From: Lentisphaerota bacterium
Lineage (GTDB): Bacteria; Verrucomicrobiota; Lentisphaeria; Victivallales; Victivallaceae
DNA: 56,080 nucleotides
Assembly (NCBI GenBank): GCA_015061525.1
Contig: SUWK01000010.1
Coordinates: 1 to 56,080, forward strand
Direction of reading: 5' to 3'
Positions 36,351 through 43,580 of this stretch are shown here, piece by piece (position 1 is the first letter of the stretch; each line of letters starts with the position of its first letter). Below the pieces are notes generated by a model, which had not been told where the DNA came from, searched no databases, and was given only the letters and a program-made list of their open reading frames with translations. The position numbers and the translations under genes are program-made.

Positions 36351-37046
36351 TCACATCCCCCATACGCCATTAACATAAAAGATGTTTTTGTAGGTGTCAT
36401 TTTGCGGAGGTGCGTTTTTATCACTCTGGGAGATATTCATAGATTCAGCATGACCGTCCAACATCAGCAAATTGGTATTGTTGCTATGGATCATAACGCC
36501 GAGATATTTCACATTGTTGGCGTTGGCCCAGTTGAACATAAAAGTGGTTCCGCTCGCTGCCTCTGAGGCTGGTTTATCTCGGTCTGCCATAACACAAAGG
36601 CTGGATACATTTTTGATTTGAGAGGCTTTGCGGACACGATTCCAGTAAGCATCCGCAGTAATGTTGCAGGTTTCCTGATTGGGGATATAACAGGTTTTAT
36701 TGAGCGATACTGATTTCCAGGAGCCTCTTTCAAGAGCGTGTTCTGCTGTCGGCTGTGAACCAGACGGGCAGTAGTAGGAGCCAGGAATCAATCCGCCTTC
36801 GCTGGCACCGATATACGGGATGAAGCTGAAAAACATATTCATCGCTTTCGGACCTTTGCTTTCGTCGGTGATATTTTGATTATCGTGTACAGGCAGATAT
36901 CCGTCGTAATCTGTAATATACATCTCATAGCACGTGCCGAGCTGTTTCAAATTGTTGATACAGCTTGCAGCCCGTCCGCGTTCACGCGCACTGTTCAATG
37001 CGGGAAGCAATATCGCTGCCAATATCGCGATGATGGCGATAACGAC
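36351..37046 (-). pseudogene. 3' part of a split prepilin-type (DUF1559, H-X9-DG) gene
   Basis: From the element boundary at 37046 the minus strand reads [20 protein letters not shown], then the pseudopilin body ([22 protein letters not shown]) and near the end [16 protein letters not shown], an H-x9-DG motif. The FTLIELLV peptidase site that should precede it is missing; the upstream bases are the element's inverted end. The matching 5' part lies 6 kb away at 43071-43477. An ATG at 37121 inside the element could start a hybrid without the cleavage site. Such pseudopilin-like proteins often stand at the head of carbohydrate gene clusters in this phylum, as here. Confidence 0.75.
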
Positions 37047-37079
37047 GGTAACATCACATCTCTGCTGTGATTTTTTCAA
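37047..37079 (+). repeat. Left inverted end (putative att half-site)
   Basis: Reads inward GGTAACATCACATCTCTGCT and on to TGATTTTTTCAA. Compared with the right end read inward it differs at four positions and lacks three bases over 37. The flanking prepilin codons resume directly outside it. Confidence 0.8.
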
Positions 37080-37120
37080 AAATTGTAATGCTTTTATTAT
37101 CAGCCAATTACAAATTATCA

Positions 37121-37342
37121 TTATTTCTTTTTCTGATTATTACGGCGTTCAAGCTCTGCTTGCAATTCTTCTGTCGGCAATGTTGCAAGGCTTTTTCTCA
37201 CTTCATTTTTTGCTTTTGCGGCGGCAACCGCAGAAATCAGCTCCTTATATTGCTTTGTCAACTGCTGAATTTCGGCGGTCGGAAGCCCCTTCAGTGTCGC
37301 CTTGAACGCCTTAACTTCTTCTGATTCCTTAATCCGTGCCAT
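37121..37342 (-). CDS. Small basic helical protein of the element
   Basis: 73 residues, Lys/Glu/Ala-rich with heptad-like spacing (two predicted helices around [16 protein letters not shown] and [13 protein letters not shown]). A strong AAGGAGG site and a TTGAAT-17-TATTTT promoter precede the ATG, so it is a real gene. No family recognised. Its place between the left end and the divergent resolvase suggests a DNA-binding or recombination-accessory role, but that is a guess. Confidence 0.6.
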
Positions 37343-37386
37343 AATTGAACCTCCTTGTATTAGTTAATGGTTATGTATTCTGCAAT

Positions 37387-37415
37387 AAAATACCACGCAT
37401 TCTTGAAAAATTCAA
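37387..37415 (-). promoter_or_regulatory. Promoter of the 73-residue gene
   Basis: On the minus strand: TTGAAT (37415-37410), 17 bp, TATTTT (37392-37387). It lies in the 316-base divergent gap before the resolvase gene; the gap also holds A/T-rich runs and a CGGCG/CGCCG inverted pair. Confidence 0.65.
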
Positions 37416-37520
37416 ATCGGAAAATCAGAAAAAATACAAAAAAAAATCGTCGGCGTATTCGCCGCAAATAAATTTTTTCAAAAAAATCAAAAATTAGCCG
37501 ACAAATAACAAATAATAGAC

Positions 37521-37549
37521 TTGATTAATTATAAGAAGGATGCTATCTT
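37521..37549 (+). promoter_or_regulatory. Promoter of the small serine resolvase
   Basis: TTGATT, 17 bp, TATCTT, about 110 bases upstream of the ATG; the long leader may hold the resolvase binding sites. Confidence 0.65.
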
Positions 37550-37658
37550 GAAGGCGTGCAAAAAAGGAATGATTATTGCACGGTAATTTTTAAGAAAATT
37601 TGAGCAGAAAAAAACAAGAAAAATCAACAAGGTTTTCTGGACGATACAGGAGGATAAA

Positions 37659-38243
37659 ATGAGAGTTGCAATTTACGGCAGAGTTTCAACTATTGGCAAA
37701 GGTCAAGATGTGGAAAATCAAGCAAGGTTATTGAGAGAATATTGCTCTGATAATAATTTTGAAATCGTTGCTGAAATAACGGAAAATATCAGCGGTGGAA
37801 AAAAAGCCGATGAAAGAAAAGGTATGAAAGAATTATTTTCTCTCTGCCATCGCAAAAAAGTTGATATGGTGTTGTTCTTTGCACTCGATCGGCTCTCTCG
37901 CCGTGGTGTGCGTGATACGCTTGATATTCTGAGCTATTTCGACGGTTGCGGTGTAAAATGGCACTCATATTCTGAACCATACCTCAGCACCGCTTGCGGT
38001 GGTGTGTTCTCGGAAGCTCTGATCTCCATTCTCGCCGCCCTTGCCAAACAAGAAAAGCAGAGAATTTCTGAGAGAGTTACCGCCGCATTGGCAAAGAAAA
38101 AAGCCCAGGGGGTTAAGCTCGGTCGCCCCATTACCGCAGATAAAGAAAAGGTTATTGAACTGCGGAACAATGGTCTTTCACTTGCGGCGATTGCCAAAGA
38201 ATTAAACATAAGCAAAAGCAGAGTTTTTCAGCTGTGTAATTAA
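37659..38243 (+). CDS. Small serine recombinase (resolvase/invertase)
   Basis: 194 residues. The N-terminal catalytic domain has YGRVS with Ser10 as nucleophile, LFFALDRLSRRG with the conserved Arg pair, and the E-helix LAALAKQEKQRISERV. LGRPI leads into a C-terminal helix-turn-helix (ELRNNGLSLAAIAKELNISKSRVFQL). Full length for the Tn3-resolvase/Hin type. AGGAGG precedes the ATG. It contains no TAG and ends in TAA. In this element it may resolve dimers or invert a segment, separate from integration by the large recombinase. Confidence 0.92.
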   Translation: MRVAIYGRVSTIGKGQDVENQARLLREYCSDNNFEIVAEITENISGGKKADERKGMKELFSLCHRKKVDMVLFFALDRLSRRGVRDTLDILSYFDGCGVKWHSYSEPYLSTACGGVFSEALISILAALAKQEKQRISERVTAALAKKKAQGVKLGRPITADKEKVIELRNNGLSLAAIAKELNISKSRVFQLCN

Positions 38244-38252
38244 ATTAAAAAT

Positions 38253-38274
38253 GGCACGCCTAAAACGGCGTGCC
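38253..38274 (-). terminator. Terminator of the amber-codon operon
   Basis: Perfect stem GGCACGCC / GGCGTGCC with a six-base loop; on the minus strand it is followed by ATTTTTAA. It separates the convergent resolvase from the recoded genes. Confidence 0.75.
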
Positions 38275-38287
38275 GTATGCGAAAAAA

Positions 38288-38641
38288 TCAAAGGTAAAAA
38301 AGCTACTCTATGATCTTATTTATTTTATGTTTATAGTGCTATGTTTCGGCGGTTGAATTGGAAAAATTCAAGCAGTATAACCAAAACTAATAATCGAACC
38401 ATATTTTTAAAAATTCGCTCTTATATAGAACTTTATATTTCTTGCATATTTTGCTATTTTTTCGCTCCATGCAATATCTCTGAATGTCGGTCAATGTTCC
38501 GAAATCATAGTGCAAATAACCGTCAGCCGTAACGAACACGCCGAAATACTATTGATCGGTTATACTCGGATTGTTAATGTAGAATATACGGCTCTTGCGG
38601 AACTCTGCACGCATAGCATAAACTTTATCTCTCAAGCTCAT
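38288..38641 (-). CDS. Small gene with in-frame TAG codons (ORF2 of the recoded operon)
   Basis: From the ATG at 38641 (GGAGG upstream, start overlapping the previous gene's region by TGATATG) the frame reads MSLRDKVYAMRAEFRKSRIF, then TAG at codon 31 followed at once by YFGVFVTADGYLHYDFGTLT. Further TAGs lie at codons 85, 101 and 113, and the first TGA is at 38288-38290; no TAA occurs. In the standard code the product would stop after 30 residues. The part after codon 31 is clearly protein-like; beyond codon 85 it is less certain. No family recognised. A terminator hairpin follows. Confidence 0.55.
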
Positions 38642-38642
38642 A

Positions 38643-38843
38643 TCAACGCCCTCCGATAATAGACAAAACATATTTACGGCGGTCGAACATAGCCTCCGCA
38701 GCTCTCAGTGCTTCGCCGTATGACCCCGCCTATAATTCAATGCTGAATGTTGCATAACCGCCTTGCTTCGGCGTGCATAAAATCTTGTATTTTTTCGCCG
38801 TTAATTCGTGAGCAATACGGCGTAATTCATTAGTGATATTCAT
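38643..38843 (-). CDS. Small gene with one in-frame TAG (ORF1 of the recoded operon)
   Basis: 66 residues if codon 38 (TAG, 38730-38732) is read as an amino acid. Before it: KILCTPKQGGYATFSIEL; after it: AGSYGEALRAAEAMFDRRKY, which reads as a normal beta-strand-then-helix continuation. It ends in TGA. GGAG lies about ten bases before the ATG. The next gene's ATG follows one base after the stop. Function unknown. Truncation at the TAG would leave 37 residues. Confidence 0.6.
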
Positions 38844-38994
38844 ATAATTTTTCTCCAATTTGATTTTTTCATTTATTAAAAAAAATAAAAAATTTTATCG
38901 GTCGGCGGCAGATAATTTCACCGCCGTATAGAAATAACTTCTTTTATGCGGAATTATCGCATAATATCAAGTTCAATTCCTATATATAAAGGAA

Positions 38995-40224
38995 TTAATG
39001 CACCTTTATTTCTCCATTAAAAAGCATTTTATATGCGTAAATCATTACGTCTTTCAGCTATTCTTTATATCGCTTATCGACAATGAAACTGTCATGTATT
39101 GGCAAGCATGGCACGCCCTTCGCCGTAAAATGTGAAACAACATTGACGGCGATTCTTGCGTCGTAATTCTGCAATTTAATTCCTATACCGCTCCCGAAAC
39201 AATCAGCAATCGGCGTGTGATATTGTTTCGCCGCCGCTATGATCGGCTTAAAATCAAGTGTGTTTTTATACTCTTTTTCCAATGCTTTCAATGCGGAATA
39301 TTCCGTCTCTGCGTTAATCAATACAAGTATTGTTTTTTTTGCAATATTGCGGTTGAAATCAAAAGAATATGGATCTGATAATAGTTCAATATTACGCTGT
39401 GCATAAAGCATTGATAGGTGCAAAGTTGAGAAATCAAGCTCGACGGTATCAGCAAGGTTTATTTGTATTTTCGCACGTTCCTATTTGCCTAATTGCTGAT
39501 AGCTTATTCCCCTATATGGAATACAGTATAAGCGTCCGCCGTCATTGAATGAATTATTATTGTATATCGCCGTCAATCGTGGAAATAATCGTGTTGTAGT
39601 TCTATCGGAATTTAGCACTGTTCTGAAATCAAACTGCTAATACAATTTATTGGTTAATTCCAATTTATTTCTCAGTATTTTTGTTTCAGAATTGCCCTTG
39701 AAATTCACTCTGTTTTTATTTTGATCTTTCATAATAATTTCTTTTTCTTTTGCGGTGCAAATGTCGGAGAAATCAAGAGTATTGAATTGAGAATATAACG
39801 ACGGCAACGCCCAATATTTACTTGTTTTTCCTTTGGTATTATCGCCGAACGCTTTATATCCTTTTTTCTCTGCAATATATTTTTTCTCTGTCAAGAAATC
39901 AACGCAAAAAATAAAAATATCGTAAGAAATTAGAGAAAAAGCAAAGTTGTTATGATCGGAATAATAGCTTTTTGTTCTCGGAATTGATACGCATTTATTC
40001 GTGCGAAAAGCAACAAAAAAATTGCAAAGTAATGTTTTTAGGTAATCACGAACTTTGTATTGTGATTTTTTTGAAAAACTCTGAAAGATATTCTATCTCT
40101 ATATTTCAGCAATAATTTTTTCAGAAATTGATTTTATTTCTGAATGATCTGAAAATTTGTAAAAGTCAAATTTCATGCTCTAATCAAATAAATGTAGATC
40201 GGAAAAAAGTTCCTAATATTTCAT
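38995..40224 (-). CDS. Family-A-polymerase-like protein read through seven TAG codons
   Basis: A 409-codon frame from an ATG with AAGGAG at the right distance to a TAA at 38995. It contains TAG at codons 4, 15, 42, 44, 196, 248 and 389, and no TAA or TGA; I checked the frame codon by codon through the N-terminal third. The last 200 residues have palm-like motifs in polymerase-A order: VELDFSTLHLSMLYA (motif A), RNIAKKTILVLINAETEYSA (like the O helix) and CLPIHDSFIV (motif C, HDS for HDE). In context Gln fits every TAG (for example AEI-x-R-x-NIF and KRYKE-x-LKDV). Likely the element's replication protein. In the standard code it would be three residues long. A decayed gene is the alternative. 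Confidence 0.7.
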
Positions 40225-40260
40225 TTTTTACTCCTTAAATTTTTTCGCATTGATACTATT

Positions 40261-40288
40261 AATATAACATACTTTTAAAAAAAATCAA
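40261..40288 (-). promoter_or_regulatory. Promoter of the polymerase-like gene
   Basis: On the minus strand: TTGATT (40288-40283), 16 bp, TATATT (40266-40261), 37 bases before the ATG; nearly the same as the promoter of the large recombinase at 43019-43046, including the T-run after the -35. Confidence 0.75.
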
Positions 40289-40360
40289 CATATATTATTA
40301 GGAATATAGTAGTATAGTATATATCGGTCTATTACCATTATACGAACTTTTTTATATCGT

Positions 40361-40386
40361 TTTTATTGCTCAGCTGAGCAATAAAA
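40361..40386. terminator. Perfect 26-bp palindrome with T/A flanks
   Basis: TTTTATTGCTCAG and its exact reverse complement are joined without a loop, with A/T runs outside. It could end transcripts in either direction or bind a dimeric protein in the divergent control region. Confidence 0.5.
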
Positions 40387-40413
40387 AAAGTCGGAAATTC
40401 CTAAATTATCAGA

Positions 40414-40442
40414 TTGATTTTTCGCCGTCGGCGTGGTATAGT
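40414..40442 (+). promoter_or_regulatory. Rightward promoter of the element's control region
   Basis: TTGATT, 17 bp, TATAGT. It would start a transcript near 40449 that runs through the large inverted repeat into the nuclease gene. The spacer contains CGCCG/CGGCG, a small palindrome. Confidence 0.6.
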
Positions 40443-40517
40443 ATAACAATGTTCAACTTAATGGAGGTTGCGAACTGATTTTTATAGAATGATGATATAA
40501 CGTTACTTATTGAGGGT

Positions 40518-40640
40518 CACGTCCGAACTACCACAATACAGCCGTCGCCCCTATACACAGCTAATCTCGATATGTGCCGTGTGCATACACGGTGCATTTC
40601 GTTGTGTATTAGCTGTGGAGCTGTGGTAGGCTCGGACGTG
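40518..40640. repeat. Large nested inverted repeat (possible origin, res site or structured leader)
   Basis: Outer arms CACGTCCGA-ACTACCACA (40518 on) and TGTGGTAG-TCGGACGTG (ending 40640), middle arms CACAGCTAAT (40556-40565) and ATTAGCTGTG (40608-40617), and an inner hairpin CCGTGT GCAT ACACGG near 40578-40593. No gene inside. It lies between the polymerase-like gene and the nuclease, so a replication origin is plausible; a recombination site or an RNA switch are alternatives. Confidence 0.65.
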
Positions 40641-40678
40641 GTACATTCGGAATGCACCTCTTTTTTTTACGGCACGGC

Positions 40679-41155
40679 ATGAAAACAGCACTCTATATTA
40701 TACTCTTATTTTTTCCTGTTCAGCTCATTTTTTCAGCTGAAATAATCGGTGAAGTTGTCGGCGTGAGCGACGGCGACACTATTACTATTATTGACACTAC
40801 CAACCGCCGTTATCGCATACGCCTGGATCGGATCGACGCGCCAGAACGCCGACAGCCATTCGGCAAAAAATCGAAACAATATTTATCCGCTCTGATATTC
40901 GGAAAACAAGTCAGAATTGAATACGGCAAAAAAGATCGTTATGATAGAATATTAGGCATTGTTTTTCTTGGCGAAAAAGAAATCAACTTGGTTATGGTGC
41001 AGCACGGCATGGCGTGGCACTATTCATACTATGATAAGACGGAATGTTACGCCGCCGCCGAACGTGAAGCTCGGCGTAAAAAAATAGGTTTATGGAGCGA
41101 TCCGAACCCCGTAAACCCATACGATTTTAGGAAACGCAAAAGAACGCAAAAATAA
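40679..41155 (+). CDS. Secreted thermonuclease-family (SNase) protein
   Basis: 158 residues from the ATG at 40679, which begins a signal peptide (MKTALYIILLFFPVQLIFSA); an in-frame ATG at 40652 would add nine residues in front. Neither has a clear ribosome site. EVVGVSDGDTITII and RIRLDRIDAPERRQPFGKKS are the SNase signature with calcium-binding Asp and catalytic Arg; YGKKDRYDRILGIV is the second motif, with D where the catalytic Glu usually lies. Such nucleases are frequent on conjugative and integrative elements. It contains no TAG and ends in TAA. Confidence 0.82.
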   Translation: MKTALYIILLFFPVQLIFSAEIIGEVVGVSDGDTITIIDTTNRRYRIRLDRIDAPERRQPFGKKSKQYLSALIFGKQVRIEYGKKDRYDRILGIVFLGEKEINLVMVQHGMAWHYSYYDKTECYAAAEREARRKKIGLWSDPNPVNPYDFRKRKRTQK

Positions 41156-41227
41156 GCCATTCTGGCGGCGATCAACGATAATGCAATTAGTTTATACCCA
41201 TTGCCATTTATCGCCGTTATACGGCGG

Positions 41228-42991
41228 TTATTGGCGAAATAATCGTATGCAATAAGTCGGTGTATCAAGTAACGTTTCAGCCTTTTTATTCCTAAATTCT
41301 TGAATTGGTTTATCAACACAATAAAAATTAATAAATGTGAAAAATTCTTTATCAAGAAATCGGCTGTCATCGTAATCACTCTTTACCATTGGTGCGTTAG
41401 TAACTTCGATCCACGGCAACACCTTTTGACCTCTTTTATTTATCATAATTCGTGGTATTGTGAACTGATTGCCATCGGTAAGGTGTATCGTAATAGCATT
41501 GTCAGAAACAATAATTTCTTTAATTGTTTCTTCTAAAAGTCGCTTATAATCATGTTCTTGCAACTTCATCAAGTTTTGAATTTGAAAAAAATCTTGTTCT
41601 ATTTTTTCTCGCAATTCAGAGTAATTTTTTTCCTTTTGAGTTTTAATTTCTTCAAGCTCATTTTTCAAGCGGTTTATTTCTTTGTTTAATTCGTCAATCA
41701 TTGGGCGTATAAGCTCGATATCTTCAATATTTTTTGCAAGTTTGAATTTCACCTCTTTTTCTGTGTTTTTTTGATCGATTTGTGCTTTTATTTCGTCCTC
41801 ATGGCTGTCGATATTTTTTATGTCAATCAACTGTTTTCTGCTCTTTATGCAATTGACAATAAAAAGTCCTTGCAAAGTAGTATATAATGATTGATTATGG
41901 AAATTATAATTAGTTCTAATTCTCAACGTATGTGAACCATCATTTATACAGCGATATACAATTCCATTATCAAACGAAACAGTTAATTTTCTTCCGCATT
42001 CACACCGCAAAAAACCGCTAAAAGGCAAAAAGTGACGTTGCTTGTTTTCCTTCAAATTGTATTTTTGATAACCATGTTTTTTTTCTGCCATTTTACGTTG
42101 AACCTCGATATATTCTGAATACGTTATAGGGGGATTGTCAACATTTCTTGCTTTGCATAAATCACCGTCAGTATTTCGCATATATCCACAATATATTGGA
42201 TTGGTTAATATGTGAATAATATTTGTTCCGTAAAACTGTTTTGCCTTACGCCTAATCCCCTTAAATGTATAGTATGGTATGAGGTGTTTATATTTTTGAT
42301 TTATTCTGTGTAATATTTCAGAATATGAACGTCCTTCTAATACGGCAGTATATATGTATTTTATCATTTCGGCGTATTTGGGATCAAACGTAATTCGCCG
42401 ATTTTTACTCAGTGTTCCAAACGCTGTTGTTACGGCGAGAAAAGAATTTTTACGTTTTTCAATACTCTGTATTGACGTTACTTTTTTTCGGTGTAAACTC
42501 TCATATTCGATTGCGTCACGAAATGATTTCATTATTTGCTGCATTCTGTCGGTGAAATCAAACGTAGAATTATTGTATGCTTCCGCAATAGAACATCGGT
42601 TATTAAGCAAAAATAAAGTAATGTAATTACCTAAGTTGGAATTTCTTGCATTACGGTATATGCGGTCTGTATCATGGCATACAATATAGTCTATTTTATT
42701 GTGTTCGATACAATCGAAAGCACGCCCTAATTCCTCTTTGTATTCTTTACGATTGGGAGTGCGTTGCTCCTTTTTCCACTCTTGAAAACCATCATCGTAT
42801 ATAGCACGTTCAATGCCTTGCTCTGTTAGCGGATACAGTTCACTCGATGTATTATAATCGCAGTATTCGCCGATTATGGTAATATTATTTTTTTCGCAAT
42901 ATGCCCGACACGTTTCCAACTGTCCCTCAATGGAAAGACTTTCATTTTCACTGCCGAAACTTTGTCGGCAATATATTACGGCTGTTTTCAT
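41228..42991 (-). CDS. Large serine recombinase (putative element integrase)
   Basis: 587 residues. The catalytic domain begins AVIYCRQS with Ser11 as nucleophile, with DYIVCHDTDRIYRN later; a recombinase domain follows (NPIYCGYMRN), then a zinc-ribbon-like segment (LRCECGRKL) and a long coiled coil (~420-500, EINRLKNELEEIKTQKEK). This is the plan of phage/ICE-type serine integrases. It starts 79 bp from the right end of the element and reads inward from a promoter partly inside the end repeat. AAGGAG precedes the ATG. No TAG inside; it ends in TAA. The sequence between the catalytic and zinc segments looks intact. Confidence 0.92.
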   Translation of the reverse strand: MKTAVIYCRQSFGSENESLSIEGQLETCRAYCEKNNITIIGEYCDYNTSSELYPLTEQGIERAIYDDGFQEWKKEQRTPNRKEYKEELGRAFDCIEHNKIDYIVCHDTDRIYRNARNSNLGNYITLFLLNNRCSIAEAYNNSTFDFTDRMQQIMKSFRDAIEYESLHRKKVTSIQSIEKRKNSFLAVTTAFGTLSKNRRITFDPKYAEMIKYIYTAVLEGRSYSEILHRINQKYKHLIPYYTFKGIRRKAKQFYGTNIIHILTNPIYCGYMRNTDGDLCKARNVDNPPITYSEYIEVQRKMAEKKHGYQKYNLKENKQRHFLPFSGFLRCECGRKLTVSFDNGIVYRCINDGSHTLRIRTNYNFHNQSLYTTLQGLFIVNCIKSRKQLIDIKNIDSHEDEIKAQIDQKNTEKEVKFKLAKNIEDIELIRPMIDELNKEINRLKNELEEIKTQKEKNYSELREKIEQDFFQIQNLMKLQEHDYKRLLEETIKEIIVSDNAITIHLTDGNQFTIPRIMINKRGQKVLPWIEVTNAPMVKSDYDDSRFLDKEFFTFINFYCVDKPIQEFRNKKAETLLDTPTYCIRLFRQ

Positions 42992-43018
42992 GTTTTATCT
43001 CCTTAATTCTCAGCCGAT

Positions 43019-43046
43019 AATATAACATATATCTTGAAAAAATCAA
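43019..43046 (-). promoter_or_regulatory. Promoter of the large serine recombinase, overlapping the right end
   Basis: On the minus strand: TTGATT (43046-43041), 16 bp, TATATT (43024-43019). The -35 lies inside the terminal inverted repeat, so recombinase bound at the site would also control its own gene. Confidence 0.75.
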
Positions 43047-43070
43047 TGGCAGTAGAGATATGAGGTGACC
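43034..43070 (-). repeat. Right inverted end (putative att half-site)
   Basis: Read inward on the minus strand: GGTCACCTCATATCTCTACT, then GCCATTGATTTTTTCAA. It is the inverted partner of 37047-37079. Confidence 0.8.
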
Positions 43071-43128
43071 ACCAGCAATTCTATCAAAGTGAATGCGCTC
43101 TTGGGAAGAGGGGAAAAACTTCTTTTCA

Positions 43129-43186
43129 CGGGAAAAGAGGTTTTTCCCCTCTCCCCAAACCCCACTCCCTTTTTCAAGAAAAGCGG
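43129..43186. repeat. 58-bp repeat, copy 1
   Basis: Nearly identical to 43288-43345 (one difference seen), direct orientation, 159 bp apart; both lie in the module between the two FTLIELLV codings. The C/T-rich core contains CCCCTCTCCCCAAACCCCA. Confidence 0.9.
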
Positions 43187-43287
43187 AATTCTTTGTGATG
43201 ATAAATCCGAGCCCCAGCGAAGCGACTCGTCACGGCGTAGTGAAACGAAGACGGAAGGGCGAGTTTTTTCGCAACCCGCCGAGCGGG

Positions 43288-43345
43288 CGGGAAAAGAGGT
43301 TTTTCCCCTCTCCCCAAACCCCACTCCCTTTTTCAAAAAAAGCGG
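43288..43345. repeat. 58-bp repeat, copy 2
   Basis: Second copy of the C/T-rich 58 bp unit at 43129-43186. Confidence 0.9.
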
Positions 43346-43580
43346 ACTTCTTTGTTGAGTTGCAACCGCACTTTTTTGTGCAAAGAAATGCCATGATGAG
43401 ATAACAGTACTTACCAGAAGCTCAATAAGAGTAAATGTATGTTTTCCCTGTTGAATGTCCTTTTTTCCGTAATTCATCTTTTGATTCTCCTTTTTGGTTA
43501 TCGGATAACAGACCATAACTTGAATTGTGATTTCGTTGATGTATGTTTTGCTTTTTCAATTCAAGATTCTGCACATCACT

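Follow-up and report, generated by a model that had tools for sequence, protein, structure and literature searches.

TAG as a sense codon in the replication genes of a small integrated element from a Lentisphaeria bacterium

Phage satellites such as the P4-like elements and PICI are small, and combine an integrase with a replication protein in the absence of structural genes. Stop-codon recoding has so far been a phage subject, and code switching is said to have been proposed by Borges in 2022 as a form of lytic control; in some ciliates, the nuclear code reads TAG as Glu. The crAss-like, Lak, and phAss-1 phages (code 15), as they are summarised in the literature, use TAG in some genes and the standard code in others, within a host that itself keeps the standard code. 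The recoded crAss-like phages are described as limiting the alternative code mostly to late genes (PMC7886860), a Sup tRNA was reported as detectable in 52.4% of predicted code-15 phages (PMC11210395), and the isotypes predicted for one set of Sup-CTA tRNAs were Gln, Trp, Ile, and Tyr, and not Glu (PMC10879173). In the trypanosomatid Blastocrithidia, the nuclear code is reported to assign UAR to Glu (PMC12153298).

The window analysed here, a stretch of 56,080 nucleotides from a Lentisphaerota bacterium (contig SUWK01000010.1 of assembly GCA_015061525.1), holds an integrated element which resembles the code-15 phages in that only some of its genes contain in-frame TAG, the rest and the host keeping to the standard code. 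It differs from them in its length of about 6 kb, in having no structural genes, and in that no suppressor tRNA is seen in element or host; its TAG codons lie in replication genes rather than late genes, at columns that favour Glu over Gln. The initial annotation held that the element does the same as the crAss-like and Lak phages, a parallel which found no support; about half of those carry a Sup-CTA tRNA, and they read TAG as Gln. In size and make-up, the element is like the satellites named above, except that no capsid-remodelling or packaging genes were recognised and that its helper is a proposed one. Full-length homology and a similar fold link its polymerase to the phrog_4756 proteins of Vibrio, Aeromonas, and Shewanella phages and integrative elements, and in several Lentisphaeria elements the phrog_4756 relatives have a recombinase as neighbour, as in the window. 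The Blastocrithidia and ciliate codes differ from that of the element in being eukaryotic, genome-wide, and host-encoded. Recoding occurs here in a non-phage-like integrated element of a standard-code bacterium with no visible decoder, and in genes on which replication of the element presumably depends.

The integrated element and its open frames

The element and its genes are laid out as follows (window coordinates).

37056..43062, no strand: integrated element of about 6 kb, ends approximate, with imperfect terminal inverted repeats, within a prepilin-type gene
Element ends, from both end sequences: left CATCACATCTCTGCTGTGATTTTTTCAA; right, as reverse complement, CCTCATATCTCTACTGCCATTGATTTTTTCAAG
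36351-37060 and about 43062-43516: prepilin halves flanking the element
37121..37342, minus: left-end ORF of 73 aa with no assigned function
37659..38243, plus: small serine recombinase (resolvase/invertase), standard code, TAA end
38288..38671, minus: third gene, 127 codons, four in-frame TAG, TGA end
38643..38858, minus: small (second) gene, one in-frame TAG at 38730-38732, TGA end, weakly DpnD/PcfM-like
38995..40224, minus: 409-codon gene with seven in-frame TAG and a TAA end, for a family A DNA polymerase-like protein (phrog_4756)
40518..40645, no strand: long hairpin, 128 bp, in the polymerase-nuclease gene interval, possible origin or structured RNA
40652..41155, plus: staphylococcal-nuclease-like protein (SNase-like), standard code, TAA end
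41228..42991, minus: large serine recombinase, likely integrase, standard code, TAA end

The G+C content is 33-39% inside the element against 43-47% outside. A large serine recombinase, att-like ends, and a target gene interrupted by the insertion mark it as a serine-recombinase integrative element, and its pairing of an integrase with a replication gene is that of a phage satellite, no phage structural gene having been matched among its seven ORFs. No close relative of the large serine recombinase was seen among 60 genomes; since the element cuts a type IV prepilin-like gene in two, the recombinase may target the prepilin gene family. Beyond the right border, in host DNA that forms the leader region of the prepilin gene, TTTTTCCCCTCTCCCCAAACCCCACTCCC segments are repeated at 43101-43158 and 43280-43335, one of them inside a 27-bp palindrome. 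The hairpin, which separates the nuclease gene from the promoter of the polymerase, is nearly perfect, with a stability far above that of shuffled sequences (z -4.5 and -5.8); it matched no Rfam family and is a candidate replication origin.

Translation of 38995-40224 confirmed the 409-codon minus-strand frame of the initial annotation, with TAG at codons 4, 15, 42, 44, 196, 248, and 389 and no internal TAA or TGA. The small neighbour with its single TAG was likewise recovered, and the third frame, for which one to four TAG had been given, proved to hold four; its probable start is an ATG at 38641, immediately after the stop of the second gene. Pfam, PDB sequence, and phage searches yielded nothing useful for these two genes. 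All three TAG-bearing genes close with TAA or TGA and the recombinases and nuclease with TAA, in keeping with the earlier statement on how the genes of the element end.

Three genes with 12 TAG and no other internal stops present the pattern of a code-15 recoded phage. At the polymerase gene's own base composition, random stops would be TAA in 52% and TAG in 24% of cases, which gives a probability of about 3e-8 for 12 of 12 stops being TAG (4e-5 for the seven of the polymerase alone) and bears out the excess over chance claimed at the outset. The remaining five frames of the same DNA contain 18 to 38 stops each, mostly TAA or TGA. As the polymerase frame was chosen post hoc, an independent copy constitutes the stronger test.

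A second copy and the polymerase family

Such a copy was found by a search of 149 related genomes in Lentisphaeria bacterium RGIG4094 from roe deer caecum, which belongs to another species of the genus and is the nearest copy-bearing relative. Its polymerase is 49% identical over the whole length and contains five TAG and neither TAA nor TGA. Three TAG codons coincide between the two copies, and a promoter-like motif is common to them.

40213..40215, minus: TAG codon 4 of the polymerase, TAG in RGIG4094 too
40180..40182, minus: TAG codon 15 of the polymerase, TAG in RGIG4094 too
39058..39060, minus: TAG codon 389 of the polymerase, TAG in RGIG4094 too; column mostly Glu in relatives
40331..40351, minus: promoter-like motif AAAAGTTCGTATAATGGTAAT upstream of the polymerase, 20/21 bases common to RGIG4094

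Differences between the two copies by codon position number 148/119/229, of 405, and the dN/dS of the polymerase is about 0.12, with dS near saturation. In a neutral simulation from the polymerase gene, about 16 TAA or TGA codons arose, and none of 2000 runs ended with zero. The DNA upstream of the polymerase has diverged except for the 21-base promoter-like motif AAAAGTTCSTATAATGGTAAT, for which viral contigs returned 30 matches, about chance level by estimate. The RGIG4094 copy is placed after a tRNA-Arg gene and adjoins a tyrosine-recombinase-like integrase; its element is incomplete because the contig stops 0.7 kb past the polymerase. Only these two TAG-bearing copies are known.

With its TAG codons opened, the protein matches the phrog_4756 profile over its full length (E 4.2e-56, residues 16-400 of 409), and its AlphaFold2 model has a mean pLDDT of 90. 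The best PDB matches of the predicted fold are DNA polymerase I structures (E 7e-6, with a TM of only about 0.3); on the viral side, phage members of the family match best. The signatures of a family A DNA polymerase are present, namely D264 in motif A, an R-x3-K helix (R292/K296) in motif B, and H377-D378 in motif C; all 28 residues invariant across nine relatives, the window protein included, are kept, with every TAG codon lying outside them. The profile match, the invariant residues, and the predicted fold support a family A DNA polymerase-like protein spanning the TAG codons, as had been proposed from the order of its motifs.

In several relatives, the polymerase also lies near a serine or tyrosine recombinase, judged from sequence. 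One genome (G065, L100:6906-13397) has polymerase, third-gene-like, small second-gene-like, and tyrosine-integrase-like genes within about 7 kb, all in standard code, and three of its proteins (138-146 aa), which have no TAG, can be aligned with the third gene of the window over almost all of its length. No in-frame TAG series was seen in the scanned relatives except the RGIG4094 copy. Two proteobacterial family members (L178 and L187) have TAA or TGA in frame, an ordinary decay unlike the TAG-only pattern. In viral contigs, single-protein scans with the polymerase, with each small gene, and with the two-copy alignment found no TAG-bearing relative, and those contigs carrying the polymerase family showed no TAG-specific gain in open reading.

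Purifying selection acts on the polymerase frame across TAG codons, some of which the two diverged copies have in common. Given the second copy, the coincident TAG codons, the dN/dS, the simulation, the shared motif, the invariant residues, and the fold, we conclude that this lineage was already using TAG as sense before the window and RGIG4094 copies diverged, and has done so since.

The amino acid at TAG

At the TAG columns of the polymerase, relatives have mostly acidic or polar residues. Family-profile log-odds over eight columns placed Glu above Gln by 9.6 nats, a score reached by none of 5000 draws from variability-matched Gln columns and by less than 1% of draws from Glu columns; the signal is above that of even typical Glu columns, and an effect of column selection is likely. 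Site likelihoods, obtained on a fixed tree of 103 sequences from present-day residues with no sequence reconstruction, ranked Glu (0) and Asp (-0.3) ahead of Asn (-2.8), Lys (-6.2), and Gln (-9.2). Calibrated on known residues, they were compatible with Glu and not with Gln, a contrast that is artificially sharpened because some calibration columns include the sister's identical residue; columns 416 and 418 are poorly aligned. At the TAG columns of the third gene, the three G065 proteins have E,E,Q; E,E,E; A,A,E; and F,F,F. In the second gene, Gln is aligned opposite TAG, but the TAG had been entered as Gln, and a gap-free reading leads to Glu.

The initial assignment of TAG to Gln found no support in the columns, which are Glu-like in both the profile and the likelihood analysis. 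A Gln reading as in the code-15 phages differs from our main explanation in the residue only and is otherwise compatible with it; we consider it possible, at a probability clearly short of even. A single step leads from CAG to TAG, and all bacterial and phage reassignments of TAG known to us, pyrrolysine aside, are mainly to Gln. Set against this are the deficits of Gln relative to Glu (or Asp), 9.6 nats in the profile and 9.2 in the tree likelihood, together with the third-gene columns. Weighing the aligned columns against the strong prior that favours Gln, we give Glu about an even chance or a little more; if confirmed, it would be, to our knowledge, the first TAG = Glu outside eukaryotes, with no bacterial or phage precedent.

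Decoding in a standard-code host

The window assembly (2.83 Mb, 89.6% complete) and that of RGIG4094 are both incomplete MAGs (90 and 92%). RF1 is present in the host, where TAG terminates a few percent of genes: 1 of 33 long ORFs in the window, and 4 of 64 close to tRNA loci of the same assembly. Of the genes of the element, those for replication have TAG as sense and the window recombinases lack it; the host uses it as a stop. The initial picture of a recoded non-phage-like element accordingly stands as to sense TAG in replication genes beside standard recombinases, on the strength of the second copy, selection, fold, and motif, and is unsupported as to Gln and phage-like decoding.

The CUA-anticodon tRNA that the initial annotation had called for was seen neither in the element, nor in either host genome, nor by anticodon-loop pattern in the 34-genome genus. 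RF00005 gave 40 tRNAs over the family cut-off in the window assembly and 45 in RGIG4094, and ARAGORN found no CUA anticodon on the stretches fetched from both; ARAGORN did not recognise as tRNAs two more weak RF00005 matches in RGIG4094 (E up to 10). The CUA-loop pattern returned only tRNA-Arg(UCU)-form sequences across all 34 genomes, and a suppressor-tRNA-like match to a TCTAA pattern also turned out to be tRNA-Arg(UCU). The window copy of the element contains no tRNA and thus no suppressor of its own, and no CUA-type tRNA lies near the polymerase relatives. Pyrrolysine decoding was set aside, with PylS over the cut-off in none of the 34 genomes and in 1 of 14 control genomes. Among viral contigs, a search for Glu-type CUA anticodon arms gave no match belonging to a CUA tRNA, and no supplier of a suppressor was found there.

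With RF1 present, TAG used as a host stop, and no CUA tRNA seen, the decoder must come from elsewhere; at seven TAG per message, ordinary leakiness could hardly yield protein. The explanation towards which we lean, at slightly better than an even chance, is that of a serine-recombinase integrative element of ~6 kb, probably of satellite or small plasmid-like type, whose replication operon uses TAG as sense, most likely for Glu, and is translated only when a TAG-recoding replicon supplies the suppressor. In the resting host, RF1 would end the polymerase at codon 4 and leave the element silent, and only the standard-code recombinases could work, holding it integrated. A TAG-recoding replicon, most likely a phage, would on entry bring a CUA suppressor tRNA, upon which the polymerase would be made and the element would replicate alongside the newcomer. 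Such a division between two codes would be akin to that reported for the recoded crAss-like phages, with their mostly late-gene use of the alternative code (PMC7886860). We infer this dependence on a helper from the absence of a decoder in the two incomplete MAGs. Were the decoder to come from an infecting replicon, the genetic code would act as a sensor for that replicon.

The strictest form of this explanation is more doubtful, and we advance it only tentatively: TAG = Glu replication genes silenced by RF1 and switched on solely by the suppressor tRNA of a recoded phage or plasmid, such that the element would be a code-gated satellite, its polymerase translation needing a suppressor in trans. 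No description of genetic-code control as a satellite switch was found in the literature, and if true it would be, as far as we know, the first case of a replicon taking the genetic code of another as its signal for induction.

It is less probable again, and on balance unlikely, that the host, an unassembled part of its genome, or a resident plasmid encodes an amber suppressor on which the element relies, perhaps at low level or with an unusual structure. The completeness of 90-92% and the frequent failure of plasmids to be binned leave room for such a gene, and about half of predicted code-15 phages are likewise reported without a detectable Sup tRNA (PMC11210395); it is opposed by the lack of CUA among the 40 and 45 tRNAs at E up to 10, by the purely tRNA-Arg(UCU)-form matches in the genus, and by RF1, the use of TAG as a stop, and the absence of PylS over the cut-off. 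We find it improbable that the element in its complete form encodes a suppressor itself, or that it is what remains of a larger recoded element or prophage after loss of the suppressor: the RGIG4094 element is incomplete, and recoded phages are described as often bearing Sup-CTA, yet in the window element both recombination ends are present and a tRNA is lacking, and the polymerase relatives have none of this kind nearby. A decaying pseudogene with stops that are TAG by accident is very improbable, for although the standard code breaks the frame seven times and the gene is known here from sequence alone, the second copy, the invariant residues, the fold, the simulation, the promoter motif, and the probability of about 3e-8 speak against it and would leave room solely for a loss of function confined to the window copy and very recent, against which the shared TAG codons count.

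The integrase beside the RGIG4094 polymerase has a standard-code end at TAG (L019:17802-17804), and read-through would add about 14 residues; TAG would therefore serve as both stop and sense in one element.
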